A stretch of 42,305 nt of DNA. Origin: a virus. Position 1 is the first letter of the stretch; each line of letters opens with the position of its first letter. The DNA is taken from IMG/VR virus record IMGVR_UViG_3300032163_000034, positions 1 through 42,305 of that record; one strand, given 5' to 3'. Position numbers and translations under genes: made by a program. Positions 6,607 through 18,408 of the stretch are shown one piece after another. The notes under the pieces are model-generated. The model searched no databases. It worked only from the letters and a program-made list of their open reading frames with translations, and was not told the origin of the DNA.

Positions 6607-7146
6607 CTTTAGCTTTTCCTTGTACACCTTGCGGATGTTTTTTAAATCCTCAATGGTGTATTTTTTTGGGGGGTGATTTCCTTCAACCCATTCAACCAGA
6701 TCAAGGCCTACTTTTTTTATCAAATTTATCCTGTATTTCAGAATATTGCCCGACAAGTGATTGTTGCAGGTTGAGCATTGACTATTTACATTAACTGTTT
6801 CGTTAAATCTCAACTCTGGGCAGGCTTTTGTCGTGCGATAATGCCCAGCATGATATTGTATATCGGGTTTTTGCGTACCGCATGAGATACAGATTTTCCC
6901 GTCACGCGCTCGAATATAAGCGTTAAATGCTTGTTGCGCTTCTTTCATGTACTCGGATTTACTTTTTAACTCATTTAAACGTGTTTTAACGGCCTTTTTA
7001 TCAGCCTTAAGTTCTTTGGCTATCCGTGCATCCCTTTGTTGTTTGGCATAGTCTATTGAGCAAATTAACCCACATACAGCTTGCAATGAGTTACGCGGCG
7101 CAAACTTCTGGCCGCATAATTTACTTTTGCAGGTTTTTAATTTCAT
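6595..7146 (-). CDS. ninG: NinG-family recombination protein
   Basis: 183 aa. Matches the lambda NinG (Rap) family: an N-terminal Cys knuckle (CKSKLCGQKF, then CGLIC), a long charged helix, and a C-terminal nuclease-like region with IRARDGKICISCG, QYHAGHYRTTKACPELRFNE and NVNSQCSTCN. In lambda this protein is a Holliday-junction endonuclease acting on Red recombination intermediates. Last gene of the PR-like operon, order NinB then NinG as in lambdoid phages. A stray copy of its 3' end sits at about 11964-12052. Confidence 0.9.
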   Translation of the reverse strand: MKLKTCKSKLCGQKFAPRNSLQAVCGLICSIDYAKQQRDARIAKELKADKKAVKTRLNELKSKSEYMKEAQQAFNAYIRARDGKICISCGTQKPDIQYHAGHYRTTKACPELRFNETVNVNSQCSTCNNHLSGNILKYRINLIKKVGLDLVEWVEGNHPPKKYTIEDLKNIRKVYKEKLKLLG

Positions 7147-8189: not shown

Positions 8190-8608
8190 ATTGATTCACA
8201 TTCATTAGTCGCATATTCAGCATGGTTGTATTTTATTGGAGGCTTGTTTTTTGGGTTTTTTAGAAGATCGTTTATTTGTTTAGACATTCTGCGCCGATAA
8301 TCTGGCAAAGATTCTCCTTGTGCCGCTTCCATGCCAACAGGTGCATTACAGTGTTCAAATTCATGGTATGGCATATTAATCACTTTTTCCAACCAATTTA
8401 TTTCACGTTCATGGTTTTTTAGCAGCATTGTGATGTGATCCAGGCTTTCACCGCTTCGCAGATTGTGATACCTGCAATTCCAGTATTCGGTTTTAATGGT
8501 TGCCAGCCTTGGGCATCCAAAGGCATGACAATCATGCTCCCCAGTGTCATTAGATGTTTTTTGTACGCGTTGATTTTCAGTCGGAGCCTTGAAATTATAC
8601 TTTGCCAT
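8186..8608 (-). CDS. Hypothetical replication-operon protein with Cys/His cluster
   Basis: 140 aa. Residues 20-50 contain CHAFGCPR and WNCRYH, a likely zinc finger (Cys-x4-Cys...Cys-x2-His). The rest is helical (LDHITMLLKNHEREINWLEKVI). It lies in the position of a helicase loader (lambda P, DnaT/DnaC-type) right after the initiator, but no ATPase or loader motif is visible, so that role is only a guess. Overlaps the initiator gene by 14 bp. Confidence 0.55.
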   Translation of the reverse strand: MAKYNFKAPTENQRVQKTSNDTGEHDCHAFGCPRLATIKTEYWNCRYHNLRSGESLDHITMLLKNHEREINWLEKVINMPYHEFEHCNAPVGMEAAQGESLPDYRRRMSKQINDLLKNPKNKPPIKYNHAEYATNECESI

Positions 8609-9314
8609 GATATTTTCTCTCCGCTACTTTCGCAAAATTCGATTCGTTAGTTAAATACTCCAAGTCTGCAACAAATCTCTTACGTCCAGGTGAAGGGTCT
8701 ACTTTCCCGGTCAACCAATCAGATTGACTTACAAAATCAAAATATTCTTTCCACGTTCCCAAGTCCGGCAAGTTTCCACTTTTCCACCTAGCCGCTATCT
8801 GCCCTTTTCGTTTTGTCGTCAGCATCACAACTTTCGGACACATCGGAAGGGTTTGGTGGTAAAGGTTTACTATTTCCTCATATTGCACCGCGTCAGCCTT
8901 CGGCGGTTTTTCTGCCGGAGGTGACATAGGTTTTATATCCTCTGTCTCTGTCTCTGTCTCTGTCTCTGGTTGGTCAGGTTGGCTACCAATTGGCGTCACG
9001 TTGACGTCAATTTGACACTCATCAATAAACCCATTGATTATAAACAGTTTTAAATCTGGCTGAGTATCAAGATGGCATAGTTTTTGAATTATTCTTGGTG
9101 ACGCCGGTATGACGCCGTTGCGGTCAGCAGCAAGCAACCAAATGGCGACAAGTTGACCGCGTTGCGCATCTGTAAGTGAAACCCACTCCACTTTTCTCAT
9201 TAACTCTCTATGAATTTTTATCCACGGTGGTTGACCTCTATCAGCCCGGTAGGATTGCCATTTATCCCAATTATGGATTTTCAGCATTGTCATATCACTC
9301 AATGTTGGCATCAT
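8595..9314 (-). CDS. Phage replication initiator-like protein
   Basis: 239 aa. N-terminal half resembles the winged-helix region of phage replication proteins of the lambda O type (WIKIHRELMRKVEWVSLTDA, QLVAIWLLAADRNGVIP, RIIQKLC); then a repetitive TETETE linker and a C-terminal part (EIVNLYHQTLPMCPKV...WKEYFDFVSQSDWLTG) typical of phage helicase-loading or primosomal proteins. I choose the ATG at 9314, 5 nt after AGGAG; the frame also has a TTG at 9317. First large gene of the minus-strand operon. Its ribosome site is covered by a long hairpin in the leader. Confidence 0.8.
   Translation of the reverse strand: MMPTLSDMTMLKIHNWDKWQSYRADRGQPPWIKIHRELMRKVEWVSLTDAQRGQLVAIWLLAADRNGVIPASPRIIQKLCHLDTQPDLKLFIINGFIDECQIDVNVTPIGSQPDQPETETETETEDIKPMSPPAEKPPKADAVQYEEIVNLYHQTLPMCPKVVMLTTKRKGQIAARWKSGNLPDLGTWKEYFDFVSQSDWLTGKVDPSPGRKRFVADLEYLTNESNFAKVAERKYHGKV
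8940..8968. repeat. CTCTGT hexanucleotide repeat
   Basis: About 4.8 copies of CTCTGT encode the Thr-Glu linker in the replication protein. The 6-bp unit keeps the frame whatever the copy number, so it changes linker length only. Confidence 0.8.
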
Positions 9315-9315
9315 C

Positions 9316-9420
9316 AAATCTCCTGTCGGCTGGCCTCTGTTCCGGTGAGAGTCCGTACATCGGGCTGACCATTGCGGCTAAAAAAACGGGACAGACCAGA
9401 AGCCATGCGGCAGGAGATTT
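9316..9420 (-). ncRNA. Structured leader that covers the initiator ribosome site
   Basis: The ends AAATCTCCTG (9316-9325) and CAGGAGATTT (9411-9420) pair perfectly over 10 bp. Inside, CTGG/CCAG (9330-9333, 9396-9399) and TCTGTTCCG/CGGGACAGA (9336-9344, 9387-9395, one G-U) pair, with a smaller CCG/CGG hairpin in the loop. In the minus-strand mRNA the 3' arm of the closing helix contains the AGGAG of the replication gene, so folding would hide it. No known RNA family recognised with confidence. Confidence 0.6.
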
Positions 9421-9736
9421 TGTCCCAATGTTTACCTGATTCTCACGTCAGGGTGAATTTAAATCACATGGTTATACTAACAAACCTTACTACAAATTGC
9501 AAATTGCACCGTCAATGATTAGTTGATAGTTAGTATTGAAGTTGGTGTACTGTCATCCGCACTATACTAGCTGGCCACTAACCCAGATTTCGATGGTCAT
9601 TTTCAGCGGATTACACAGGTTTACGATCCTGCGCCTGTAGTGAGATACGCTCACTACCTGACACCAACAAGGAACAACCCTATAATAAGATGGTTCCTTG
9701 TTATCCCTGTTTACACTGTCAGGGGCAGAGTGGGCT
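9421..9736. promoter_or_regulatory. Gene-free control region between cro-like and replication genes
   Basis: About 315 bp without a gene. It contains the hairpin GTAGTGAG-ATACG-CTCACTAC (9637-9657), the promoter and inverted repeat described separately (9658-9702), and AT-rich DNA at 9460-9530 with repeated CAAATTGCA. It may hold operators or an origin; no DnaA-box cluster or clear iterons were seen. Confidence 0.5.
9658..9702 (+). promoter_or_regulatory. Strong plus-strand promoter inside an inverted repeat
   Basis: CTGACA (9658-9663), 17 nt, TATAAT (9681-9686). The -10 lies in the loop of a 10-bp perfect inverted repeat, AACAAGGAAC (9666-9675) with GTTCCTTGTT (9693-9702). Transcription would run antisense through the cro-like gene towards 10031, so it could make an antisense or maintenance-type transcript under repressor control. 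Confidence 0.55.
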
Positions 9737-9931
9737 CTATTTGTTCACCAGGGCATCTTCCCTGGCCTTCTTACGCAGGGCTGCCATTTCAACTCTCGGC
9801 CTGATTCTGGGTGTTAAAATTTCTGGCCATTGCCCTACGGCCTGGGGAGTAATGTTACCCACTTCCCTAGCTATCTGGGCTATAGAACCAAATAAATTTA
9901 TTGCATCAGTTTTTGTTTTTAATTTTTCCAT
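9737..9931 (-). CDS. cro: Cro-like repressor
   Basis: 64 aa from the ATG at 9931 (a longer frame to 10009 would run back through the promoter). It fits small Cro proteins of lambdoid phages: LKTKTDAINLFGSIAQIARE then VGNITPQAVGQWPE (helix-turn-helix with the QAV.QW recognition helix), then IRPRVEMAALRKKA. Basic C-terminus. It is the first gene of the minus-strand replication operon, like cro in lambda PR. The palindromes at 9977-9995 and the matching half-site at 13.14 kb are the likely operators. No CI partner gene is seen. Confidence 0.8.
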   Translation of the reverse strand: MEKLKTKTDAINLFGSIAQIAREVGNITPQAVGQWPEILTPRIRPRVEMAALRKKAREDALVNK

Positions 9932-9950
9932 AGCGCATTCTAAATCATCT

Positions 9951-10002
9951 ATATAAAATATGCAAATAAATCCTTGCAAACTAAATTTTAGTTTGGTATA
10001 AT
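9951..10002. promoter_or_regulatory. Divergent promoters with a shared -35 box and palindromic operator
   Basis: Plus strand: TTGCAA (9974-9979), 17 nt, TATAAT (9997-10002), leading to 10031. TTGCAA is self-complementary and, read on the minus strand, stands 17-18 nt from TTATAT/TATATA (9950-9956), leading to the cro-like gene. The plus spacer is filled by a 19-bp palindrome, CAAACTAAATTTTAGTTTG (9977-9995, only the centre base unpaired), so a bound repressor would block both directions. Confidence 0.75.
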
Positions 10003-10030
10003 TCTTCACAATGAACTTTTTGGATAAAAG

Positions 10031-10315
10031 ATGATGAGCAAAATTGATGAATTAAAAGGAATGCCAGTTGTTACCGTTGAACAAGTTTCAAGATTTAGAA
10101 GCGAAGCATTATCTGAATTGTCGGCACAGACATATAGAGCGAATGTACTCGCGGAGACCATCAGAGAATTGAGCGATGTAGTAACATTTGATGGAGAAAC
10201 TAAGCAAGATTTTATAGAGAGAGTTTGCAATATTCTTGCTGCTGATCCTGATAAACGTGTCCCGCCCAACGTAAAGGTAAGTGGCAACGAAAGGATAAAG
10301 GAGAAAATTAAATGA
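10031..10315 (+). CDS. Small hypothetical protein with attC-encoded tail
   Basis: 94 aa. Helical, acidic (VEQVSRFRSEALSELSAQTY, IRELSDVVTFDGETKQDFIE). First gene after the divergent promoter. The last 18 residues (PPNVKVSGNERIKEKIK) are encoded by an attC-like half site (10264-10285) and the leader that follows it, so the original protein probably ended sooner. ATGA overlap with the next gene. Function unknown. Confidence 0.7.
   Translation: MMSKIDELKGMPVVTVEQVSRFRSEALSELSAQTYRANVLAETIRELSDVVTFDGETKQDFIERVCNILAADPDKRVPPNVKVSGNERIKEKIK
10264..10285 (+). repeat. attC-like half site 1 (R''-L'')
   Basis: GCCCAACGTAAAGGTAAGTG followed by GC: the R'' and L'' boxes only. Next comes AACGAAAGGATAAAG, a leader also found after the half site at 10513. 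No R' follows. Confidence 0.5.
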
Positions 10316-10512
10316 AGATACACTATTTTGGGCAAGACAAAGCAGACGCAGACGACATGCAACTTGATATGGCAAAGATGCAATTTTATGTGCCACAGAA
10401 CTGCTTACTCGGCGGGATGGTTGTGATGGGCGAAGTACAGCGCGGCGAGAACCCTTGCAATGGATGCAATGGGCCACGCGATAAATGTAATGGCAAGCCA
10501 AAAGTAACATGA
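10312..10512 (+). CDS. Small Cys/Asn/Gly-repeat protein
   Basis: 66 aa. N-terminal half has IHYFGQDKADADDMQLDMA; the C-terminus contains PCNGCNGPRDKCNG, a CNG triple repeat that may bind metal. ATAAAGGAG about 10 nt before the ATG. The stop codon is 4 bp before the next attC-like half site. Unknown function. Confidence 0.6.
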   Translation: MKIHYFGQDKADADDMQLDMAKMQFYVPQNCLLGGMVVMGEVQRGENPCNGCNGPRDKCNGKPKVT

Positions 10513-10534
10513 CGCCGAACGTAAAGGTAAGGGG
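10513..10534 (+). repeat. attC-like half site 2
   Basis: GCCGAACGTAAAGGTAAGGG plus GC, then AACGAAAGGATAAAAATG: nearly the same as half site 1 together with its leader, so a unit of half site plus ribosome site has been copied. Confidence 0.5.
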
Positions 10535-10550
10535 CAACGAAAGGATAAAA

Positions 10551-10889
10551 ATGATTGATATTGTAAGCAGGCTTAGAACTGGCGTGTATGGAATTGATAG
10601 AATACCTCTCTGCATAGAAGCGGCTGATGAGATTGAAATACTACGCGAAGGCGGGCTTTTTAAAAGGGATGTGAAAATGAGTAAGATGATTGAAACTACT
10701 GGTTATAACGGCATACCGCTGTTGATAGCGCAAGACAAAATTATTTCGATGCAAGAGAGAATTGCGCCAGGTGGAATATCTGGCGATAGGCATGGGCCAT
10801 TAACTGCAATTTCCATAATTGGCGACCCAGATGAGTGGCTGGTGATAGAGTCCATGCATTCTTTGCGCGTGAAATATGAGAAACCCTAA
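10551..10889 (+). CDS. Hypothetical protein, possibly two cassette proteins fused
   Basis: 112 aa from the ATG at 10551, which follows GAAAGGATAAAA; an upstream ATG at 10509 would translate the half site. Residues 1-34 (VSRLRTGVYGIDRIPLCIEAADEIEILREG) resemble short coiled-coil segments of lambdoid accessory proteins. From residue 43 (MSKMIETTGYNG, with AAAGGGATGTGAAA before its ATG at 10677) an independent small protein could begin. The stop TAA lies inside R'' of the next attC-like site. Confidence 0.6.
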   Translation: MIDIVSRLRTGVYGIDRIPLCIEAADEIEILREGGLFKRDVKMSKMIETTGYNGIPLLIAQDKIISMQERIAPGGISGDRHGPLTAISIIGDPDEWLVIESMHSLRVKYEKP

Positions 10890-10944
10890 CGTGGAGGTAA
10901 GCGGCTCCGCGCTTTTGCGGAGTCCGAGTTGAACGCCGGGTTAG
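10884..10944 (+). repeat. attC-like site A (complete, 61 bp)
   Basis: R'' CCCTAAC (10884-10890), L'' near GGTAAGCGG, perfect hairpin CTCCGC/GCGGAG, L' CCGAGTTGAAC, R' GTTAG (10940-10944). The stop of the previous gene is inside R''. Nearly the same hairpin and L'-R' half as site J (18346-18408). Confidence 0.72.
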
Positions 10945-10954
10945 AGGATGGGCC

Positions 10955-11134
10955 ATGAATAAAAGACAGGCAAGCAAGATAAATAGGCTGCGAAAAGAAG
11001 CGGCGGAAAGATGCGCCGAGCTTGAAACTGAAGCACAAGCAGCAAGCTGTATGTGCCGAGAGATGTTGATGAAGATGGCGGCAAAATACAGGAAACAGGC
11101 GGAAGAATATGGGGATCAAATTGGCATCCTCTAA
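10955..11134 (+). CDS. Small coiled-coil protein (59 aa)
   Basis: Translated directly: MNKRQASKINRLRKEAAERC, then a long charged helix to YGDQIGIL. Predicted single coiled coil with three Cys. Lies between complete site A and the next half site, i.e. it occupies one cassette; its TAA is in R''. Ribosome site GAGGATGGG is modest. Confidence 0.6.
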   Translation: MNKRQASKINRLRKEAAERCAELETEAQAASCMCREMLMKMAAKYRKQAEEYGDQIGIL

Positions 11135-11152
11135 CGATAAATTAAGGGGCTG
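11128..11152 (+). repeat. attC-like half site 3
   Basis: CTCTAACGATAAATTAAGGG followed by GCTGCCCC: R'' and L'' with a short GGGGC/GCCCC hairpin, then AGAGAAAGGATAACAGAG, the leader of the next gene. No R'. Confidence 0.5.
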
Positions 11153-11178
11153 CCCCATAGAGAAAGGATAACAGAGAA

Positions 11179-11370
11179 ATGAACGATCAGACTGAAGTGA
11201 ATGAAAGGTTAGCCAGTAATTACCCATCTGGATATACACCGTCGCAAATGGAATTAGATTCTGATGCATGGCTTGACCGAGAATTTTGGAATGGGATATA
11301 CAAGAATGAGATGGCGGAGCGCACGCGCAGATGGTTAGAAGCAGAGGATGCGACTGGTCGAATCGCGTAA
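11179..11370 (+). CDS. Small hypothetical cassette protein
   Basis: 63 aa, acidic, helical in the second half (WNGIYKNEMAERTRRWLEAED). Leader AGAAAGGATAACAGAGAA before ATG. Stop at 11368, just before another half site. Not recognised. Confidence 0.6.
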   Translation: MNDQTEVNERLASNYPSGYTPSQMELDSDAWLDREFWNGIYKNEMAERTRRWLEAEDATGRIA

Positions 11371-11371
11371 T

Positions 11372-11485
11372 GTGCCCAACGTAGAGGTAAGGGGCCTCTG
11401 TGTATTTTTCACGATCAAGCTAACACCACCACCGAACGAAAACGATAAGAGAATTATGGCGACTAAGTGGAAAGGGAAAAGATGA
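11372..11485 (+). pseudogene. Truncated copy of the 45-aa membrane protein fused to an attC half site
   Basis: A frame from GTG 11372 reads VPNVEVRG (attC-encoded) and then LCVFFTIKLTPPP through TKWKGKR. The part after the attC half matches the second half of the small membrane protein at 14897 (LCVFFTVKF...), sharing the exact 16-mer GCCTCTGTGTATTTTT. Its start and signal segment are missing, so it is a remnant; the stop overlaps the start of the next gene (ATGA). Confidence 0.55.
11374..11396 (+). repeat. attC-like half site 4
   Basis: GCCCAACGTAGAGGTAAGGG followed by GCC; R''-L'' joined straight to the inside of a broken gene copy. No R' here. Confidence 0.5.
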
Positions 11486-11676
11486 ACTCAATCAAAGACC
11501 AGCTCGATGTGGCATGGGTAGAAGGTAACAAGCTCTTGGACGAAGGTCACAAGCTATATACCGATGGTAACAATCTATGGGCTGATAAAGTTGCTGAGGT
11601 ATGTGGATCAGAAGCAAACATAGAGTGGACAGATACCGGCTGCATAGTGATGGGCATGGAGTTTAAATCAGCATAA
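11482..11676 (+). CDS. Small acidic cassette protein
   Basis: 64 aa from the ATG at 11482 (AAAGGGAAAAG before it). Contains a short internal repeat, EGNKLLDEGHKLYTDGNNLW, with three similar units of about 7-8 residues. Followed immediately by an isolated R'-like sequence. Function unknown. Confidence 0.6.
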   Translation: MNSIKDQLDVAWVEGNKLLDEGHKLYTDGNNLWADKVAEVCGSEANIEWTDTGCIVMGMEFKSA

Positions 11677-11692
11677 TGCCGGGTTGGGCGGC
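11677..11692 (+). repeat. Isolated attC R'-like half
   Basis: TGCCGGGTTGGGCGGC: the right end of the repeat family without R'' or L'', directly after the stop codon. It shows the sites can lose either half. Confidence 0.45.
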
Positions 11693-11717
11693 TTTTTCAA
11701 CAACGAAAGGAATGGTG

Positions 11718-11921
11718 ATGGCAGACGATAAAGAACTAAAGGCAGCATTACTGATTGCGGCAAAGGCGCTGGAAATTGCACATGATTGGAACCTGCCTGC
11801 TGTCCAGGTAGAGCCGCCAAAAGAATGGAATCTTGATGGCGGAGGCAAGCCCGCGAAAGACGGATGGTGTAGTACATATTCCCTTGCCAAAAAATTGCGC
11901 GAGCTGGCCGCAGCTTTGTAA
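11718..11921 (+). CDS. Small hypothetical cassette protein
   Basis: 67 aa from the ATG at 11718, 6 nt after GAAAGGA. N-terminal helix (DKELKAALLIAAKALEIAHDW), middle WNLDGGGKPAKDGWCSTYSL, C-terminal helix. Not recognised. Followed by about 150 bp without a complete gene that holds a ninG fragment. Confidence 0.6.
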   Translation: MADDKELKAALLIAAKALEIAHDWNLPAVQVEPPKEWNLDGGGKPAKDGWCSTYSLAKKLRELAAAL

Positions 11922-11963
11922 ACACCGATGATCGAATAATAATCCATATTAGGAGGGTGCATC

Positions 11964-12052
11964 GATCTGGTTGAATGGGTTGAAGGCAATCACCCCCCAA
12001 AAAAATACACCATAGAGGATTTAAAATCTATCCGCGTAATGTACAAAGCAAA
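11964..12052 (+). pseudogene. Stray 3' fragment of ninG
   Basis: The plus strand here reads DLVEWVEGNHPPKKYTIEDL then KSIRVMYKAKL, nearly the same as the last 35 residues of NinG (6595-7146), and the DNA also matches closely (about 85% by eye over 90 bp). No start codon or ribosome site. A piece of the replication operon has been copied into the cassette array in the opposite orientation. Confidence 0.8.
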
Positions 12053-12075
12053 ATTAATCACCATAAAGGAAAAAA

Positions 12076-12258
12076 ATGTCTATAACAAATATTGATTTTC
12101 ATATTGATACTCACATAATCCAGGTCGGACAGGGGGTCGTTAGAATTTTTATAGACGGATGTACTAAAAAACCTCCAATTAAATTTATTGAATTTAATGC
12201 TTTAGAACTTGAACGGATTTTGAGGGTTTCGTCTGAGCAATTGGATGGGCATGTTTAA
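12076..12258 (+). CDS. Small hypothetical cassette protein
   Basis: 60 aa, beta-rich (FHIDTHIIQVGQGVVRIFID) with a C-terminal helix. Leader ATAAAGGAAAAAA. Stop TAA lies inside R'' of the following complete attC-like site. Not recognised. Confidence 0.62.
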   Translation: MSITNIDFHIDTHIIQVGQGVVRIFIDGCTKKPPIKFIEFNALELERILRVSSEQLDGHV

Positions 12259-12345
12259 CGTAGAGTTGAGGGGGCACGCACTATGACCGACCAGAAAACA
12301 CAGAACCACGCTTTTGCGCACTCCATCTCGAACGCCGGGTTGGGC
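12253..12345 (+). repeat. attC-like site B (complete, 93 bp, enlarged loop)
   Basis: R'' GTTTAAC (12253-12259) and R' GTTGGGC (12339-12345) both fit the RYYYAAC/GTTRRRY rule. L'' AGTTGAGGG pairs with L' CTCGAACGCC; the loop carries ATGACCGACCAGAAAACAC, nearly identical to the loop of site F (16674). Confidence 0.75.
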
Positions 12346-12370
12346 AGAACTTAATTAAGAGAGGTGCATT

Positions 12371-12811
12371 ATGGATGATAAAGAACGAAAAGCGCGACAT
12401 ATTTTCCCCAAATTCGACGATATAAATACTTACACGGTTCGCGTTTTTGACCAACTAAGAAAGGTAAGGCGTATAGGGAATAACGATATACGCGCACTTA
12501 ATCCTGGAACGTTGATATTTACTGACTGCGCTCACCCAATGCAAAACGTTATTTGTCCAGAGGAAAAAATAACAGCGTGGCGAGTTGATATGCCCAACGT
12601 ACTTTTAGGCGACATAAAAACCGATACCATCGGGTTAGAGCGCATTAAATTTGAGGCTTGGATAAACCACCCAAAAGCGCTTGAGAGGTTTTCTGGAAGC
12701 AGTGCTGTTGCTGGATTTTATGTGCGCGAGGAATTGCAGATGCAATGGGAGGCATGGCAAGCCGCATTACGCTCTAACGTTAAATTAAGGGGCAGCGAAC
12801 ATGAAAATTAA
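12371..12811 (+). CDS. Phage accessory protein with attC-encoded tail
   Basis: 146 aa. N-terminal half unknown (IFPKFDDINTYTVRVFDQLR). The C-terminal half (RIKFEAWINHP...GFYVREELQMQWEAWQAAL) matches a short Trp-rich domain (FEAW...WQAWQAAL) common in accessory proteins of lambdoid phages and prophages. The last 13 residues, SNVKLRGSEHEN, come from translating an attC-like half site. AAGAGAGGTGCATT before ATG. Confidence 0.7.
   Translation: MDDKERKARHIFPKFDDINTYTVRVFDQLRKVRRIGNNDIRALNPGTLIFTDCAHPMQNVICPEEKITAWRVDMPNVLLGDIKTDTIGLERIKFEAWINHPKALERFSGSSAVAGFYVREELQMQWEAWQAALRSNVKLRGSEHEN
12771..12793 (+). repeat. attC-like half site 5
   Basis: GCTCTAACGTTAAATTAAGG then GGC, inside the 3' end of the preceding gene. 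AAGGGGC also serves as ribosome-site-like sequence for the gene at 12801. Confidence 0.5.
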
Positions 12812-13058
12812 ACAGTGTCACCCAGCATGGCCGCAACACGCAACTTTCAGTTGCCCGACTTGCGGGAGTTTATATCAAGATGGTGATGAATATGATGAAT
12901 ATTCAGGCGGGCTAGATGACGATGAAAGCGCGGCTCAATGTTTGCGGTGTAGCAACGGTTTTATTGTGAGGCGAATTGTTACCATAACGTACCACACTGA
13001 AAAACCCGGCAAGACAATCCCTGTTGTAAAAATACCGCAGGATTATAAGGATGCCTAA
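12801..13058 (+). CDS. Small zinc-ribbon cassette protein
   Basis: 85 aa with CPTCG (residues 18-22) and CLRCS (47-51), a two-knuckle zinc ribbon split by an acidic loop (DGDEYDEYSGGLDDDE). Starts 11 nt after the AAGGGG of a half site. Stop TAA inside R'' of the next site. Likely DNA- or protein-binding; partner unknown. Confidence 0.68.
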   Translation: MKIKQCHPAWPQHATFSCPTCGSLYQDGDEYDEYSGGLDDDESAAQCLRCSNGFIVRRIVTITYHTEKPGKTIPVVKIPQDYKDA

Positions 13059-13086
13059 CGTAAAGTTAAGGGGCGACGCTTCGCGT
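13053..13086 (+). repeat. attC-like half site 6
   Basis: R'' GCCTAAC, L'' AAAGTTAAGG, and the hairpin GCGACGCTTCGCG, then unrelated sequence. Same left side as site H (17821) but no L' or R'. Confidence 0.55.
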
Positions 13087-13096
13087 ATGAGGTCGA

Positions 13097-13151
13097 TCAA
13101 TTAAACTTTTAATTGAAATAGCTTGTATCGCAAAGTTTAGTTTGCTATAAT
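13097..13151 (+). promoter_or_regulatory. Second promoter with operator-like palindromes
   Basis: TTGTAT (13123-13128), 17 nt, TATAAT (13146-13151). The spacer holds GCAAAGTTTAGTTTGC, sharing the right half-site and -10 junction (TTTAGTTTGSTATAAT) with the promoter at 9974. Upstream is a 20-bp perfect palindrome, TCAATTAAACTTTTAATTGA (13097-13116). It should drive the SSB-containing gene group. Confidence 0.75.
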
Positions 13152-13188
13152 ACGCTTCAAGATGTAAGCAAATTTTTTAAGGGAGAGA

Positions 13189-13539
13189 ATGATGGACGCC
13201 AATACTTATCATCTGAATGAACATTTGGCAAAAGAAGACGAAGCTGAACGTGTCCAAGACTGGAAAGATGACTATGTCGAGGAACTTTTGGCAGAGGGTG
13301 GTGATTGTTATCCTTTTAAGCATGGAAATCTGCAAGAAGCCATTGCTGAATTGAAATTGCATGAAGCTATCCTTTTGTCATCGTATGCTCATGTAGCTCA
13401 TAAGTTACCTAGCCAGTCATCTAAAGAATATTTGGCTGAATATCTAGGTAAGATTGTTTATGCTTACTGGAAAGATGCTGCTGAAAAGAAAGCTGACGTA
13501 GATTATAACGATTACTATCAAGGGAGGAAACATGGTTAA
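13189..13539 (+). CDS. Hypothetical protein, first gene after the second promoter
   Basis: 116 aa, acidic, helical (NLQEAIAELKLHEAILLSSY, SKEYLAEYLGKIVYAYWKDA). Ribosome site GGGAGAGA. Not recognised. Likely an early protein, co-regulated with the cro-like promoter through the shared half-site. Not flanked by an attC-like site on its right, unlike its neighbours to the left. Confidence 0.7.
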   Translation: MMDANTYHLNEHLAKEDEAERVQDWKDDYVEELLAEGGDCYPFKHGNLQEAIAELKLHEAILLSSYAHVAHKLPSQSSKEYLAEYLGKIVYAYWKDAAEKKADVDYNDYYQGRKHG

Positions 13540-13759
13540 GGATAGATGTGATAAATGCAAATCAATGCGAGAAGTAGTAGGGGATGCACATATCAGCTGC
13601 GTCAATCCAGACCCAAAAATGACGGGGAATGAAAGCGGGATTAAAAAAGGATGGTTTTATTATCCGCTATTGTTTGATCCTGTATGGATGACAAAAGAAT
13701 GCTCAAATTTTGAAGTAGATACTGTTAGTAATCCTGTAAGTGGCGCAGTTAGGAACTAA
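13532..13759 (+). CDS. Small conserved-type Cys protein
   Basis: 75 aa: CDKCKSMREVVGDAHISCV, later GIKKGWFYYPLLFDPVWMTK and ECSNF. The four-Cys layout with GDAHISC and GWF.P..FDP.W looks like a small zinc-binding family that I have seen in prophages, without a known role. AGGGAGGAAAC directly before ATG; overlaps the previous gene by 8 bp. Confidence 0.65.
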   Translation: MVKDRCDKCKSMREVVGDAHISCVNPDPKMTGNESGIKKGWFYYPLLFDPVWMTKECSNFEVDTVSNPVSGAVRN

Positions 13760-13837
13760 TGCCTTAACGTGAAATAGACATTCATCCGAGGCGGGTTCAG
13801 TTAGTCGTCCAGTTAGTGATTCAGTTAGTTATCGAAA
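13760..13837 (+). repeat. Degenerate R''-like sequence and CAGTTAGT repeats
   Basis: GCCTTAACGTG (13761-13771) resembles R''. About 25 bp later TTCAGTTAGT, CCAGTTAGT and TTCAGTTAGT follow, spaced 13-14 bp apart (13797-13830). May be a decayed attC-like site or a small set of protein-binding repeats. Confidence 0.35.
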
Positions 13838-13857
13838 ATAAAATTTAGGTGAAAATA

Positions 13858-14019
13858 ATGGAAGATTATGCAGAAGTTATGGCTAAAATACCTCTTAAAC
13901 TTCGGGAGTTGTTAGATGCCTTCAACAAGAAGGATATGAGCAAGGCTTTTGAGATTGCCGATGATATACAGAATGATTGTTTTGGGTTGAAACTTTTTAT
14001 TATGGGAGAGCAAAAATGA
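13858..14019 (+). CDS. Small helical protein (53 aa)
   Basis: Translated directly: MEDYAEVMAKIPLKLRELLD through IMGEQK, all helical. TTTAGGTGAAAATA before ATG, ATGA overlap with the next gene, and position two genes before the SSB-like gene suggest a replication/recombination accessory role, unproven. Confidence 0.6.
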   Translation: MEDYAEVMAKIPLKLRELLDAFNKKDMSKAFEIADDIQNDCFGLKLFIMGEQK

Positions 14020-14231
14020 GCATGGGAAACTACGCCTTCCAAGAAGGTGAACAGAACGACTCAGGCATTAACGAAAAAGAGTATATGGAATGGCTTGAAA
14101 GTATTGAAGGGTCTTACCATTGCCCGTATTGCGGAACAATATCAGCAGAGCAAAAAACGTGCTGTGGTGAAAATCACATGCAATTGATTAGTGGAATGTC
14201 TAAGGAAGAGAAAAAGGAGAAATTAGCATGA
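14016..14231 (+). CDS. Small zinc-finger protein
   Basis: 71 aa from the ATG at 14016 (ATGA overlap). Acidic N-terminus, then YHCPYCG and KTCCGENH, a likely Cys4/Cys3His zinc site, and a charged Lys/Glu tail. GGGAGAGCAAAA before ATG. ATGA overlap with the SSB-like gene suggests co-translation with it. Confidence 0.65.
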   Translation: MSMGNYAFQEGEQNDSGINEKEYMEWLESIEGSYHCPYCGTISAEQKTCCGENHMQLISGMSKEEKKEKLA

Positions 14232-14845
14232 GATGGTCTGATACAGGAGGCGGTGACTTCGAACAACCACCAGCAGGAACCCATATAGCACGTTGTATTA
14301 AGCTGGTGGACATTGGTACGCATAAAAGCGATTATCAGGGCGCAATCAGCTTTAAACGGCAAGTAATAATTACCTGGGAGTTACCAAATACCCTGATGAA
14401 TGAGGGAGAGTTTGCAGGTAAGCCGTTTGTTACCTCAAAATTCTACACTCAGTCATTGGGCGAGAAGGCTAATTTAAGGAAAGATTTAATCAATTGGAGA
14501 GGTCGTGATTTTACACCGGATGAGCTATCGAGTTTTGAAGCTAAGAATATACTGGGGAAGCCTTGTATGCTCTCAATTACGATCAATGAAAAGAAGAAAG
14601 CGAAAATTACTGGGGTAATGGCTTTGCCTAAAGGGATGGAGTGTCCTACTCAAGTTAATCCATCGGTAGTATTTTCTCTGGATGAGTTTGATAGGGCGGT
14701 GTTTGAAAGCCTGTCCAAAGGGATTAAAGCAATGGTCGAAGCAAGCCCTGAATTCCAGCATCTAGGCAAGAAGGATGAATTCAAAGATGCAGCAGATCAT
14801 AACTTTACGAATGAAGAATTCAAGGACGACATCCCTTTTAATTAG
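14228..14845 (+). CDS. ssb: Phage single-stranded DNA-binding-like protein
   Basis: 205 aa. Matches a phage family with the pattern PPAGTHIARCIKLVDIGTHK, RQVIITWELP, ANLRKDLINWRGRDFT, LGKPCMLSI and ALPKG, thought to form an OB fold. The C-terminus NEEFKDDIPFN closely copies the acidic DDDIPF tip with which bacterial SSB recruits partner proteins, so ssDNA binding in replication or recombination is the likely role. AAGGAGAAATTAGC before ATG. Not itself inside an attC-bounded unit. Confidence 0.75.
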   Translation: MRWSDTGGGDFEQPPAGTHIARCIKLVDIGTHKSDYQGAISFKRQVIITWELPNTLMNEGEFAGKPFVTSKFYTQSLGEKANLRKDLINWRGRDFTPDELSSFEAKNILGKPCMLSITINEKKKAKITGVMALPKGMECPTQVNPSVVFSLDEFDRAVFESLSKGIKAMVEASPEFQHLGKKDEFKDAADHNFTNEEFKDDIPFN

Positions 14846-14879
14846 AATAATACATAAGCTGCATTACTGCTACATTAAA

Positions 14880-14889
14880 AAGGTTAGGC
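14880..14889 (+). repeat. R'-like remnant after the SSB-like gene
   Basis: AGGTTAGGCG: matches the R' end of complete sites, with no R'' or L'' upstream. It marks where the cassette-like units resume. Confidence 0.35.
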
Positions 14890-14896
14890 GCTTACG

Positions 14897-15034
14897 ATGA
14901 AATGCGCCTTCGGGATTGCCCTGGTTGGCTTGATAATCGGTTGCCTCTGTGTATTTTTTACAGTAAAGTTTACACAGAAGCCTGATCCGATGATAACAAA
15001 GATTATGAATGTTGAGTGGAGGAGGAAGGGTTAG
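14897..15034 (+). CDS. Small membrane protein (45 aa)
   Basis: Translated directly: MKCAFGIALVGLIIGCLCVF, then FTVKFTQKPDPM and a basic end WRRKG. One N-terminal transmembrane helix with two Cys. No good ribosome site. A 5'-truncated homologue is fused to an attC half site at 11394-11485, which supports this being a real gene. Its TAG lies in GGTTAGGG. Confidence 0.55.
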   Translation: MKCAFGIALVGLIIGCLCVFFTVKFTQKPDPMITKIMNVEWRRKG

Positions 15035-15323
15035 GGTGTTGAACGAAGAGGCAGGCGGGAAGCAGACGCCGGGTTTTGAAATAACGGAGCAGCGCCAACA
15101 GGTGGGAAACGCTGCAAATACTGGATTGATGACACCAACGATCAAAGGTCTAAACCAGTACCGCACAGGCAAGATTGGCCCCTTGGCCGGATGGAACCGC
15201 AGCCATTGTTGGAGTAGCGCCCAGCCCTCTTCATTGAACACCATAACGTATGAATTAACCGGCGCTCGTAGAGCGTCCGACTTGAATGATGGGTGTGGGC
15301 GTCACTTAACAACGGAGAATAAA
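15035..15323. other. Cassette-sized stretch without a plus-strand gene
   Basis: About 205 bp before site C, then the site, then a short leader. The plus strand has no convincing gene. The minus strand (15244-14870) is open for 124 codons rich in Phe, Pro, Ser and Cys, a composition often seen on the antisense side of non-coding cassettes; I do not accept it as a gene. Confidence 0.45.
15240..15300 (+). repeat. attC-like site C (complete, 61 bp)
   Basis: R'' CCATAAC, L'' ATTAACCGG, hairpin GCGCTC/GAGCGT, L' CCGACTTGAAT, degenerate R' GTGTGGGC. L'' and L' pair with extrahelical bases as in true attC sites. Confidence 0.65.
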
Positions 15324-15542
15324 ATGTGCGTAATAGTTATGGTCGGAGATATTGAGTGTAGTACAAAAGCAGAGCTTCGGAACGCTATTGGAATTGAACC
15401 GGAGCGTAGAAAGAAAGATTACAAAACATTTGAGGATGGAGATTGTCTTTGTCCGTGCGATCTTGAGAAAACAGCAAAGCGAGCAAATATGACACTGAGC
15501 GGTTATTCTTGGGATATGCAGATTTTGACGGCTAACGTGTAG
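15324..15542 (+). CDS. Small cassette protein with Cys pair
   Basis: 72 aa from the ATG at 15324 (ACGGAGAATAAA before it; a longer frame from 15009 would translate the whole of site C). Contains VMVGDIECSTKAELRNAIG and GDCLCPCDLEKTAKRAN, a possible metal-binding CLCPC. Ends ILTANV with the stop TAG inside the following attC-like site. Unknown function. Confidence 0.62.
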   Translation: MCVIVMVGDIECSTKAELRNAIGIEPERRKKDYKTFEDGDCLCPCDLEKTAKRANMTLSGYSWDMQILTANV

Positions 15543-15593
15543 TTGAGGGGCGCGACGCTTTACCAGCGTCCCGCTCGAACGGAAAGTTATGCC
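15530..15593 (+). repeat. attC-like site D (complete, 64 bp)
   Basis: R'' GGCTAAC (15530-15536), L'' GTTGAG, hairpin GACGCT/AGCGTC, L' CTCGAAC (one extrahelical base relative to L''), R' GTTATGC (15586-15592). Confidence 0.72.
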
Positions 15594-15616
15594 ACACACT
15601 TTAAAAAGGAACTGAA

Positions 15617-15817
15617 ATGAGAAAAAATTACCATGCTTTCACCGGAATAACGAACCCATACCCTGCCTATATCTCTGTGAACCAAGAGGAAGACTTCAAA
15701 ATATCAGTAACAGTGCGCGGAGAAGGCAGTGAAACTGCAAGCACAATATACCTGACAGCAGAGCAAGCGGAGCAACTTGCAACTGACATGCTGGATAAAC
15801 TCAATGGTGGGGCATAA
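15617..15817 (+). CDS. Small hypothetical cassette protein
   Basis: 66 aa: beta-rich first half (AYISVNQEEDFKISVTVRGE), then LTAEQAEQLATDMLDKL helix. The beta-beta-helix pattern resembles small proteins of unknown function seen in phages and cassettes. AAAAAGGAACTGAA before ATG; TAA inside R'' of site E. Confidence 0.65.
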   Translation: MRKNYHAFTGITNPYPAYISVNQEEDFKISVTVRGEGSETASTIYLTAEQAEQLATDMLDKLNGGA

Positions 15818-15892
15818 CGTATAGGTAAGGGGTCGCCCGCTTTGGGGCGATCCCGCTTCACCGCCGAGTCCGAGTGGGCTGCCGGGTTGGGC
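15812..15892 (+). repeat. attC-like site E (complete, 81 bp)
   Basis: R'' GCATAAC (15812-15818), L'' AGGTAAGGG, strong hairpin GGGTCGCCC/GGGCGATCCC, then CCGAGTCCGAGTGGGC and R' GTTGGGC (15886-15892). Confidence 0.7.
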
Positions 15893-15911
15893 TAATAAAT
15901 TGGAGAATAGC

Positions 15912-16181
15912 ATGGACAGAACTATAACTGGGGTGAGTGATTTTGTTTTACTGCGATCAGTGGCGGAAGATGTGCCGCATATGGCGGGATCAGTTCGAGA
16001 ACATTTGCGATCAATAGCCGACAAGCTCGAATACGGTGATAAAGTCGGGCAGATGCGGTGCAGAAAGTGCGGCGAAAACGTGGATATTTTAATACAAACA
16101 ATGAATGTGTCCAGTCTGTGGGAACCACTGACACCACGCACCAGCGTAACGGACATCCGAACGAGAAGGAGACCGATATGA
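15912..16181 (+). CDS. Cassette protein with a possible frameshift
   Basis: 89 aa from the ATG at 15912 (TTGGAGAATAGC before it). Helical first half (LLRSVAEDVPHMAGSVREHL), then CRKCG. A second knuckle CPVCGNH followed by a stop is readable at about 16108-16130 in another frame; a 1-base shift there would give an 70-aa protein with a complete two-knuckle zinc ribbon. The tail in the present frame (EPLTPRTSVTDIRTRRRPI) is low-complexity and basic. It overlaps the next start by ATGA. Confidence 0.5.
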   Translation: MDRTITGVSDFVLLRSVAEDVPHMAGSVREHLRSIADKLEYGDKVGQMRCRKCGENVDILIQTMNVSSLWEPLTPRTSVTDIRTRRRPI

Positions 16182-16351
16182 ATGACTGCAATGATTGCCG
16201 CTACTACTTGAGCGAAGAAATAAGCCCATATCATAGATGCTTAATTGTCTACGGGCAAGGAAGTGCAAAAGAGATAATTAAGGATGGATTGCTAGGGCGA
16301 TGTGATGAACATAAAGGAATCCTCCCTACAAAAGAGGAATCCCCAACGTAG
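16178..16351 (+). CDS. Small Cys-rich cassette protein
   Basis: 57 aa from ATG 16178 (GAAGGAGACCGAT before it): CNDCRYYLSEEISPYHRCLI, later GRCDEHKG. Likely a small zinc-binding fold with four Cys. Stop TAG lies in the following attC-like half site (ESPT then stop). Unknown function. Confidence 0.65.
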   Translation: MNDCNDCRYYLSEEISPYHRCLIVYGQGSAKEIIKDGLLGRCDEHKGILPTKEESPT

Positions 16352-16366
16352 AGTTAGCCGGCTCCG
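16340..16366 (+). repeat. attC-like half site 7
   Basis: R'' CCCCAAC, L'' GAGTTAGCCGG, start of hairpin (CTCCGCCCC), then the sequence breaks off before L' and R'. Confidence 0.5.
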
Positions 16367-16402
16367 CCCCACTGGGCTGCGAACCTTGATAAAGGAAATA
16401 AC

Positions 16403-16681
16403 ATGATGTACATACTTACGCAAAAAGAATATAAGCCGGGTGATATGCCACCAGATGGATATTTAGCGTGGCATGAATGGGCAGAAGTGCAGCGTAAAGC
16501 AGGCATCAAACAAGTTTCATGCGGGCGCTGTGGATTATGGAAAACTCCACAAGAATTAAGCGGGGAAATTATCACTATGAACGCACGAAATAAACGTGGA
16601 GATACTGTGAAAATTGAAAGTCCTGTGTGCATAAAATGTGTGAAGCCCAACGTGGAGCTAAGGGGCGCGCAAGATGACTGA
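16403..16681 (+). CDS. Zinc-ribbon cassette protein with attC-encoded tail
   Basis: 92 aa: PGDMPPDGYLAWHEWAEVQR helix, then CGRCG and CIKC knuckles about 34 residues apart, typical of a small zinc ribbon. Ends PNVELRGAQDD, encoded by the left half of site F. Leader AAAGGAAATAAC. ATGA-type overlap region with the next frame at 16674. Confidence 0.68.
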   Translation: MMYILTQKEYKPGDMPPDGYLAWHEWAEVQRKAGIKQVSCGRCGLWKTPQELSGEIITMNARNKRGDTVKIESPVCIKCVKPNVELRGAQDD

Positions 16682-16734
16682 CCAGAAAACACCACACGCT
16701 TATATGCGCGTCCCTCTTGAGCGTAAAGTTAGCC
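16645..16734 (+). repeat. attC-like site F (complete, 90 bp, enlarged loop)
   Basis: R'' GCCCAAC (16645-16651), L'' GAGCTAAGGG, arms GGGCGCGC/GCGCGTCCC, L' CTCTTGAGCG, R' GTTAGCC (16728-16734). Loop holds ATGACTGACCAGAAAACACC, a near copy of the loop of site B, and is the start of the next frame. Confidence 0.75.
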
Positions 16735-16964
16735 GCCGCTGGTGTGAGTGTGGGAAGCGTATATTCAAAAGCGTGAATCGTGCAAAGTTTAATGCTAAAA
16801 AACTACAAGCGGACGTTCCTATGTGGGTTTATGAATGCCATAAAGCGACAAAAAAAGGAATTTTTCATATAACACGTTCAAAGGGGAATGCTGCAATGAA
16901 AATAGAGGCGGCTAACGACAAAATTGAGCAGCCGACCACTAAAACACTGGAGCAAACACAATGA
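16674..16964 (+). CDS. Basic Cys-containing protein starting inside an attC-like loop
   Basis: 96 aa as drawn; the start is uncertain. From ATG 16674 the first 20 residues (MTDQKTPHAYMRVPLERKVS) are encoded by site F. The likely native core begins near RRWCECGKRIFKSVNRAKF and runs through VPMWVYECHKATKKGIFHIT, a CxC...C...H pattern. An ATG at 16701 is the alternative. The last residues (AANDKIEQPTTKTLEQTQ) come from the next site. Confidence 0.5.
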   Translation: MTDQKTPHAYMRVPLERKVSRRWCECGKRIFKSVNRAKFNAKKLQADVPMWVYECHKATKKGIFHITRSKGNAAMKIEAANDKIEQPTTKTLEQTQ

Positions 16965-17033
16965 ACGCAAATACACAGCGACATGACGAAAACCCCGCTG
17001 ATGGGCGGTCTGACTCGAATGGCGGGTTATGCC
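16910..17033 (+). repeat. attC-like site G (complete, 124 bp)
   Basis: R'' GGCTAAC (16910-16916), L'' region AAAATTGAGCAGCCGACC, and on the right GGTCTGACTCGAATGGC with R' GTTATGC (17026-17032). The long loop contains the ATG of the next frame (16961). Confidence 0.6.
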
Positions 17034-17284
17034 CTCAAAGGATGGCGTGGGAGCAGCGTTATAGTGACGATAGCGGAGTGCAATATGCGGTGCGCTACGA
17101 TGCAATAGATACGCACTATGACGGCTGCGCAAAGATACAGATTGCAGCGGTTGATAGCGCAGATTTCCCAATAACGCAACTCGACTGGCTAATCGCCTGC
17201 CTTTTCAAAATACGCGAAGAGGTTGGGCATAACGTAAAGTTAACCGGCGGGCTGACCGCAGAAAGTGATAAAACAAATGAATGA
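16961..17284 (+). CDS. Hypothetical protein whose frame spans two attC-like sites
   Basis: 107 aa as drawn. The first 24 residues are encoded by the right part of site G and the last 16 (HNVKLTGG onward) by site H2 at 17227. The core (MAWEQRYSDDSGVQYAVRYD, IQIAAVDSADFPITQLDWLI) looks like a real small protein with a conserved-looking DFPITQLDWL helix; an ATG at 17042 has its AAAGG too close. Function unknown. Confidence 0.55.
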   Translation: MNANTQRHDENPADGRSDSNGGLCPQRMAWEQRYSDDSGVQYAVRYDAIDTHYDGCAKIQIAAVDSADFPITQLDWLIACLFKIREEVGHNVKLTGGLTAESDKTNE

Positions 17285-17351
17285 CCAGATTGCAACTGAA
17301 CAACCTAACGAAGCGCATATCAGCCCGTCAGAGTTGAACGACGGGTTGGGC
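17227..17351 (+). repeat. attC-like site H2 (complete, 125 bp, enlarged loop)
   Basis: R'' GCATAAC (17227-17233), L'' GTTAACCGG, arms GGGCTGA/TCAGCCC, L' GAGTTGAAC, R' GTTGGGC (17345-17351). L''/L' are the same boxes as in sites A and J. The loop holds the ATG of the next frame. Confidence 0.72.
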
Positions 17352-17594
17352 TTAGCTGAGTTCGCAGAAATGATTGGTGGCGGGAAATTAAGGCCATACC
17401 AGAAAGAAATGCTTGACGCTTTAGAGCGTGGTGAAAAGATGCGATTCTACCCTTGCACAGGAAGGCGATACTACGAAGATTTATATGCACAGTGGCGTAA
17501 ATCATTTTTAGAGCAAGAAACAGATGATTATTCAGAGACGCCGAACGTGGAGGTAAGCGGGTGCTTGCCAAAGAATGAAAAAGGAAATATATGA
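17277..17594 (+). CDS. Hypothetical protein starting inside an attC-like loop
   Basis: 105 aa from ATG 17277, with the first 25 residues encoded by the site. Core FAEMIGGGKLRPYQKEMLDALERGEKM then CTGRRYYEDLYAQWRKS: the LRPYQKEML pattern resembles the opening of terminase or helicase domains, but no Walker motif follows. Ends PNVEVSG, from the next half site. Native start unclear. Confidence 0.55.
   Translation: MNDQIATEQPNEAHISPSELNDGLGLAEFAEMIGGGKLRPYQKEMLDALERGEKMRFYPCTGRRYYEDLYAQWRKSFLEQETDDYSETPNVEVSGCLPKNEKGNI
17540..17562 (+). repeat. attC-like half site 8
   Basis: GCCGAACGTGGAGGTAAGCG followed by GGT, R''-L'' only; same left boxes as site A. The next gene begins 28 bp on. Confidence 0.5.
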
Positions 17595-17866
17595 GTATAG
17601 ATTGCCAAAAAGAAAAACATCAGGGGCGCTGCTGCTGTAATTGCGCATGGCACATTGAAGATTTTCACCACTGCACAACGGCGTTGGAATTGCGAAAAGA
17701 AAAGCATGGATGCGTTTGCTCAGAACATAAAGGATGGATTTGCATGACATCAGAATTTGAGGGTGTAGCGCATTCAGGATGGACAGAGCATAGTTTGTGT
17801 GAGTGCCATGAATTTAAGGCGGCTAACGTAGAGGTAAGGGGCGACGCTTCGCGGCGTCCCTCTTGA
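17591..17866 (+). CDS. Cys/His-rich cassette protein with attC-encoded tail
   Basis: 91 aa: GRCCCNCAWHIEDFHHC, later GCVCSEHKGWICM and SLCECHEF, so at least two metal sites. AAAAAGGAAATAT before ATG. The last 15 residues (ANVEVRGDASRRPS) are the translation of site H; the stop TGA is in L'. The CCNC...W...H and HSxCExHEF patterns suggest a conserved small family. Function unknown. Confidence 0.66.
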   Translation: MSIDCQKEKHQGRCCCNCAWHIEDFHHCTTALELRKEKHGCVCSEHKGWICMTSEFEGVAHSGWTEHSLCECHEFKAANVEVRGDASRRPS

Positions 17867-17880
17867 ATGATGGGCTAGGC
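17821..17880 (+). repeat. attC-like site H (complete, exactly 60 bp)
   Basis: R'' GGCTAAC, L'' AGAGGTAAGG, hairpin GGCGACGC/GCGTCC region with TTCGC loop, L' CTCTTGAATG, R' GCTAGGC. The tidy 60-bp form is the classical length of a short attC. Confidence 0.78.
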
Positions 17881-17912
17881 TCTCACCCTTGACGAGAGCA
17901 CAGGAGAATAAC

Positions 17913-18077
17913 TTGAACACAATTAAATATACGCATAAAAAAACCGGCAGTATGAAAACTGTAACAGTCAGTCAGACCCATGAAATCCTCAAAGGTCAAA
18001 AATATTATGGGCAAAAAATACACTCTGTTGCGAGCGCGGACAAGAAATTGTATGCCGCTGGTTATATACGTGCCTAA
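17913..18077 (+). CDS. Small cassette protein with TTG start
   Basis: 54 aa. I choose the TTG at 17913 because AGGAGAATAAC precedes it directly; the frame is open upstream to 17889. Sequence NTIKYTHKKTGSMKTVTVSQ, EILKGQKYYGQKI then SVASADKKLYAAGYIRA. Not recognised. TAA is inside R'' of site I. Confidence 0.58.
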   Translation: MNTIKYTHKKTGSMKTVTVSQTHEILKGQKYYGQKIHSVASADKKLYAAGYIRA

Positions 18078-18133
18078 CGTATGACATGAGGGGCGCGCGC
18101 TTTTGCGCGTCCCTCTCGATGGATGGGTTAGGC
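18072..18133 (+). repeat. attC-like site I (complete, 62 bp)
   Basis: R'' GCCTAAC and R' GTTAGGC are perfect reverse complements and both fit the integron rule. L'' CATGAGGG pairs with L' CCCTCTCGATG with extrahelical bases; hairpin CGCGCGC/GCGCG. The best single match to attC in the window. Confidence 0.82.
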
Positions 18134-18159
18134 ATTTTAACAACGAAGAAAGGGTAGTG

Positions 18160-18351
18160 ATGAAAATAGAACTGACAAAAAATGAAATGTTTGATGCCGT
18201 TGCCGCAGGGGTAGACCGGGCAATCTGGCGGATGATAACAAGTGCAACAGATATGCCTGGAGCTGATTTTTGGGACACACTGAAAGGCGCGATGGAGCGC
18301 TCATTTGTAAAAATAGCTGAAGATGAAATTGAGCGCAGGCGTGATGCCTAA
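18160..18351 (+). CDS. Small helical cassette protein
   Basis: 63 aa from the ATG at 18160 (GAAGAAAGGGTAGTG before it); a longer frame from 18103 would translate site I. Helical: LTKNEMFDAVAAGVDRAIWR, LKGAMERSFVKIAEDEIERR. Ends RRDA with TAA in R'' of site J. Unknown. Confidence 0.63.
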   Translation: MKIELTKNEMFDAVAAGVDRAIWRMITSATDMPGADFWDTLKGAMERSFVKIAEDEIERRRDA

Positions 18352-18408
18352 CGTAAAGTTAACCGGCTCCGCGCTTCTGGCGAGTCCGAGTTGAACGCCG
18401 GGTTAGCC
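18346..18408 (+). repeat. attC-like site J (complete, 63 bp)
   Basis: R'' GCCTAAC (18346-18352), L'' GTTAACCGG, hairpin around CTCCGCGCTTCT, L' CCGAGTTGAAC, R' GTTAGCC (18402-18408). Nearly identical on the right to site A, 7.5 kb away. Confidence 0.78.

Follow-up and report, generated by a model that had tools for sequence, protein, structure and literature searches.

In the RNA phage MS2, the maturation (A protein) gene is preceded by a cloverleaf leader with a long-range helix, and the control of its Shine-Dalgarno (SD) sequence has been modelled by kinetic folding. In phage lambda, the leader of the N gene contains a long stem that is cut by RNase III. The locus analysed here belongs to a viral stretch of 42,305 nucleotides, hereafter the window, in which a structured leader on the minus strand lies directly before the gene of an O-like replication initiator and carries the SD of this gene within its closing helix. 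This leader is probably an undescribed RNA switch that times the production of replication proteins.

Structure of the leader

The closing helix P1 is a perfect 10-bp pairing of AAAUCUCCUG with CAGGAGAUUU (minus strand, 9420-9411/9325-9316), located where the initial annotation had placed it, and the AGGAG of the initiator gene (9324-9320) sits within its 3' arm with a spacing of 5 nt to the ATG at 9314 (Table 1). The fold proposed for this strand was reproduced by calculation: the RNA from 9420 to 9316 has a minimum free energy of -40.2 kcal/mol, with a z-score of -3.13 in 200 shuffles and of -3.23 for the 105-nt element in 1000 shuffles, four of which folded equally well. Fold energy alone is unexceptional, as 52 of 16,880 overlapping 105-nt windows of the whole stretch equal or exceed it. 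The three helices first described stood in part: P1, P2 and the small hairpin P3 are stable both in the window and in the second phage sequence presented below, but the near-optimal folds of the inner head disagree.

Judged from its conservation, the element is longer than first described and runs from about 9316 to 9453, because a conserved hairpin, P0 (9452-9435), lies upstream of P1. The P0 loop GUGAGA and the UCUCAC of the head are perfect 6-bp complements, invariant in both phages (chance probability about 0.05), a match suggestive only of a possible pseudoknot. The linker between P0 and P1 (GGGAYA) is complementary to a UGUCCC in the head in both phages, with a G-U pair in the second one, and the duplex is calculated at -11.2 kcal/mol; this pairing would represent an alternative conformer, and its coexistence with a straight stack of P1 on P2 is unlikely.

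Table 1. Coordinates of the leader, its predicted parts and the adjoining gene and promoter (window numbering; L007 is the second copy)
Feature	Coordinates	Strand	Basis or remark
O-like replication initiator gene, 239 aa, directly behind the leader	8595..9314	-	phrog_345 'replication initiation O-like', E 1.8e-24
P1 3' arm CAGGAGAUUU, with SD AGGAG	9316..9325	-	SD opening cost 13.4 kcal/mol
P2 3' arm CAGAGGCCA	9331..9339	-	pairs with 9405-9397
Head, largely unpaired	9340..9396	-	sequence mostly identical in L007
UCUCAC in head, candidate pseudoknot partner of P0 loop	9345..9350	-	complementarity
P3, small head hairpin GCCG-CAA-UGGU	9368..9378	-	pairing kept in L007
P2 5' arm UGGCUUCUG, pairs with 9339-9331	9397..9405	-	9 bp including one U-G, invariant in both phages
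P1 5' arm AAAUCUCCUG, anti-SD	9411..9420	-	perfect 10-bp helix
Linker GGGACA (L007: GGGAUA)	9421..9426	-	candidate alternative pairing with UGUCCC at 9393-9388
P0, 5-bp hairpin CCUGA-CGUGAGAA-UCAGG, upstream of P1	9435..9452	-	L007: CCCGA-CGUGAGAA-UCGGG
P0 loop GUGAGA, candidate pseudoknot partner of 9350-9345	9441..9446	-	complementarity
Weak putative leader promoter TTGCAA, 17 nt, TAGTAT; TG one base before -10	9474..9502	-	read by eye, below scan threshold

Predicted sequestration of the Shine-Dalgarno sequence

The calculated cost of opening the SD, 13.4 kcal/mol, is the highest among the 46 SD-bearing starts of the window (median 2.25); the second highest, 12.9, belongs to the in-frame ATG that follows within the initiator gene itself, and outside this gene the highest value is 6.9. 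A TTG start lies behind the element in the second phage, and there the cost is 13.8 kcal/mol, the top value within the first 20 kb of its contig, G001 (median 2.0, next 6.7). The proposed hiding of the initiator's ribosome site by this leader is thus supported by an SD cost that is the highest of the window and by the recurrence of the arrangement, with compensatory pairing, in a second phage. When an in silico transcript was made to begin at 9410 or later, the SD was freed. In nine other phage early genes, mostly O-like and including that of a close relative, L002, the SD costs were between 0.4 and 7.5 kcal/mol. None of the other O-like genes inspected has an SD-trapping leader of this kind, and therefore the leader is not general to the O-like gene family.

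A second, diverged copy of the leader

A search with patterns derived from the arms returned one other phage contig with the same element (L007 in G001), where the copy precedes the first gene of the replication operon. The element is the best DNA match between the two genomes, with 85% identity over 139 nt, and the proteins common to both phages are 28-56% identical. Conservation stops exactly at the gene side of P1 and on the promoter side extends about 35 nt upstream, through P0; within the head, only a T-run and a few positions in loops differ. This identity of the head could in part come from exchange between phages.

The arms of P1, AAAUCUCCUG/CAGGAGAUUU in the window, are GAUUCUCCUG/CAGGAGAAUC in L007, which amounts to two compensatory pairs, and P0 has one more (U-A to C-G) around an identical loop. 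In P3 both G-U closing pairs are replaced, by A-U and G-C, through one-sided changes that maintain pairing. None of the 38 proposed pairs is broken in either sequence, and there are three two-sided and two consistent one-sided changes, a count taken from two sequences with helices picked after both had been viewed. When the partners were slid by 1-3 columns, 29-42% of the cells were paired and there were zero two-sided changes, and simulated random placement of the substitutions gave three two-sided changes at p ~0.0014; the alignment shuffle control (75/500) is unable to reach significance because it has two rows only. A relative of the window phage therefore retains compensatory pairing, and with such a homolog the inverted repeat is not chance, in line with the earlier judgement that the match was too extensive for it.

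No homolog beyond L007 was returned by DNA-pattern scans of IMG/VR, a pattern scan of 84,980 genomes, BLASTN against phages and plasmids, and a covariance search of related loci. Among the candidates set aside, L003-L006, L014-L018 and L025-L042 are coding or repeat coincidences, four contigs of one Verrucomicrobiales MAG and two single matches are also coincidences, and the matches in Escherichia phages PEC14 and PEC9 are GTCCCG repeats. In one Verrucomicrobiales MAG, contigs SYMW01000247, SYMW01000199, SYMW01000220 and SYMW01000003 (L019, L020, L023 and L024) carry a repeat near the contig end with GTCAGCCC...GGACTCTCACC, which probably has no relation to the leader.

Known RNA and DNA elements were also considered. 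Rfam release 15 (4227 families) gave no gathering-score match in the window, and permissive scans returned chance matches to eukaryotic miRNA models only; a tRNA/tmRNA search found none, and a search of the available literature for similar leaders found nothing specific. The terminal inverted repeats brought a retron-like msr/msd into consideration, and there was no reverse transcriptase among the genes scanned. An origin as coding sequence was rejected: the 1-nt indel within the element makes conserved coding unlikely, and the plus-strand frame that overlaps it is not preserved. An integron attC or attI identity was rejected as well, since the GTTRRRY of the RYYYAAC/GTTRRRY core is found on neither strand of 9311-9460.

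Genomic context

The operon behind the element in L007 encodes a 68-aa protein (phrog_35777), an O-like protein and a DnaC-like loader, in this order. Its first gene uses a TTG start at 2588, backed by a phrog_35777 match that begins at residue 1. Because the phrog_35777 gene comes first, the gene directly behind the element differs between the two phages. The O-like proteins of the two phages share about 39% identity, across an 89-residue N-terminal match only. Five CTCTGT repeats lie near 8940-8970, within the O-like gene, and the comparable repetitive stretch of L007 encodes KSREETEKSREETEKGRGEVE. The repeats suggest that a replication origin likely lies inside the O-like gene, as in lambda, where the origin region is inside the O gene. 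The promoter-like site in L007 that is the counterpart of the putative leader promoter (Table 1) reads TTGCAA-16-TATAAT, matching 10 of 12 positions, and the order there is terminator (2364-2384), promoter (2397-2424) and leader.

In the region 9737-10060, a Cro-like gene occupies 9737-10009 on the minus strand, and a divergent promoter-like site on the plus strand (9974-10002) precedes the cassette-like ORF that comes first, at 10031. Among the genes scanned, none was seen to encode a CI repressor. From about 10258 to 18406, many attC-like repeats lie on the plus strand between small ORFs (for example 10885-10944, and a complete site at 18072-18133), a region that appears from its sequence to be a gene-cassette array in a phage. 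Within it, 11959-12057 is an inverted fragment of the ninG gene of this same phage, 99 nt long and 85% complementary to 6609-6707. The window has a 127-base terminal repeat. Integron-type attC sites are common to both leader-bearing phages: in G001, an attC-like site (L012, 8195-8254) shares 85% identity over 60 nt with 10884-10943 of the window. No tyrosine recombinase was found in either of the two phages. Phage-borne attC clusters without an integrase have been described already (PMC9892861). As the attC sites of both phages are related, they give a hint that the hosts may be related too.

Discussion

We favour the reading of the element as a cis-acting mRNA leader of the phage replication operon that probably keeps translation of the first gene off until it is opened. 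The minus-strand transcript would fold into P0, the linker, the long stem of P1 and P2 and the conserved head, with the SD shut according to the calculations; because P1 takes up the SD in its 3' arm, the first gene would by default not be translated. A factor sensed by the head would then open P1 and allow the replication proteins to be made, and pairing of the P0 loop and the linker with the head may form part of this switch. A recognised shape of the head is likely, because its unpaired positions are near-identical in the two phages and are not needed for pure sequestration of the SD. As opener, the phage's own initiator appears less probable than a host protein, the ribosome or a small molecule. 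Indeed, since the leader is better conserved (85%) than the O-like proteins (about 39%, N-terminally) and the first gene of L007 is a different one, a metabolite or host factor that the two hosts share would be favoured, and autoregulation by the initiator appears less likely. In a more specific form of the proposal, P0, linker and head would make up a sensor of a host factor or a phage riboswitch of a new class, which reads a host signal, opens P1 and so times translation of the replication operon; this form is tentative and less likely than not.

The same leader might work with no ligand at all, if the SD is free on the nascent RNA before the helix closes or if RNase III cuts the stem, the head then serving folding speed or cleavage. 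The SD arm is indeed transcribed about 85 nt later than its partner, P1 and P2 supply a nearly continuous duplex of about 19 bp, and differing first genes are compatible with such a leader. However, the near-identical single-stranded positions of the head are not easily accounted for in this way, and we consider it unlikely, though the likeliest of the alternatives. Of the mechanisms named in the initial annotation, a riboswitch and a protein-binding leader may each apply. The third, an RNA thermometer, would agree with an SD held in a helix close to the start codon. It is disfavoured because, in both phages, AGGAG is calculated to be unpaired with a probability of no more than 0.0005 between 15 and 50 °C and of only about 0.005 at 70 °C; moreover, the unpaired head is conserved, and we give a thermometer hardly any credence.

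The functional RNA might instead be made from the plus strand, as a structured antisense RNA that covers the beginning of the replication gene and for which the overlap with the SD is incidental; the oop antisense RNA of lambda is comparably placed. The plus strand folds as well as the minus strand or better (-47.9 vs -40.2 kcal/mol in the window, -56.0 vs -49.2 for the consensus), with a P1 of 13 bp including one U-G and 42 pairs that contain the same three two-sided changes, so that the strand assignment rests on context. A promoter-like site matching 9 of 12 positions is found on this strand just upstream, at 9287-9314, but it has no match on that strand in L007, and no U-tract terminator follows P0. 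In addition, the SD stays in the P1 arm in both phages, before two different genes, and the one-sided changes of P3 suit the minus strand only. Together with the limits of conservation on the gene and promoter sides and the promoter-like sites upstream of the leader, of which that of the window is the weaker, these features make the minus strand likely the functional one, and a plus-strand RNA quite improbable. A DNA-level element, either hairpin-forming or a protein-bound replication site adjoining the initiator gene, would suit the location, and paired changes in an inverted repeat could stem from a hairpin of single-stranded DNA. Nevertheless, the likely origin lies inside the O-like gene, the SD and its spacing to the start are maintained and there is no integron core GTTRRRY, and we regard such an element as a very doubtful explanation.

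If a cis-acting leader is the right reading, the replication module of these phages would be locked at the level of translation by an RNA that passes from phage to phage without being tied to one downstream gene. Such a lock would constitute a candidate RNA family and an undescribed control point for the onset of phage DNA replication. Because two diverged natural copies exist that differ by compensatory changes, the leader is directly testable by ordinary reporters.

The arrangement of a conserved head on an SD-sequestering stem is shared with riboswitches and ribosomal-protein leaders that act on translation, although no Rfam family matches this leader. The leader of L002, the nearest O-gene relative, is also a large closed hairpin with a branched head, in the same position before an O-like gene whose N-terminal part shares 69% identity with the initiator of the window (residues 8-108). 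It differs in having no sequence similarity and an untrapped SD (0.4 kcal/mol), and since its 19-bp stem runs into U8 it is a termination-type element. This terminator-like hairpin, at about 3900-3990 of L002 and immediately before the O-like gene, is a possible attenuator, and control at the RNA level seems to take more than one form at the position before the O-like gene. In the case of lambda N, likewise, a long stem in the leader of an early phage mRNA governs translation of a regulator; here no nut site or antitermination protein was identified, and the SD itself is in the closing helix. In the RNA switch of lambda cIII, too, the initiation region of a phage mRNA alternates between structures, and two conformers are documented there, whereas the alternative pairing of 9426-9421 with 9393-9388 is predicted. 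In the MS2 maturation leader, a branched structure is similarly shut by a long-range helix, which conceals the SD of a phage gene whose product is required in small quantity; MS2 is an RNA phage and there is no homology, and control there is kinetic, whereas the present leader has a head conserved as though something recognised it. Although it fits none of these families, the leader appears to work like the SD-sequestering phage leaders of MS2 maturation, lambda N and cIII.
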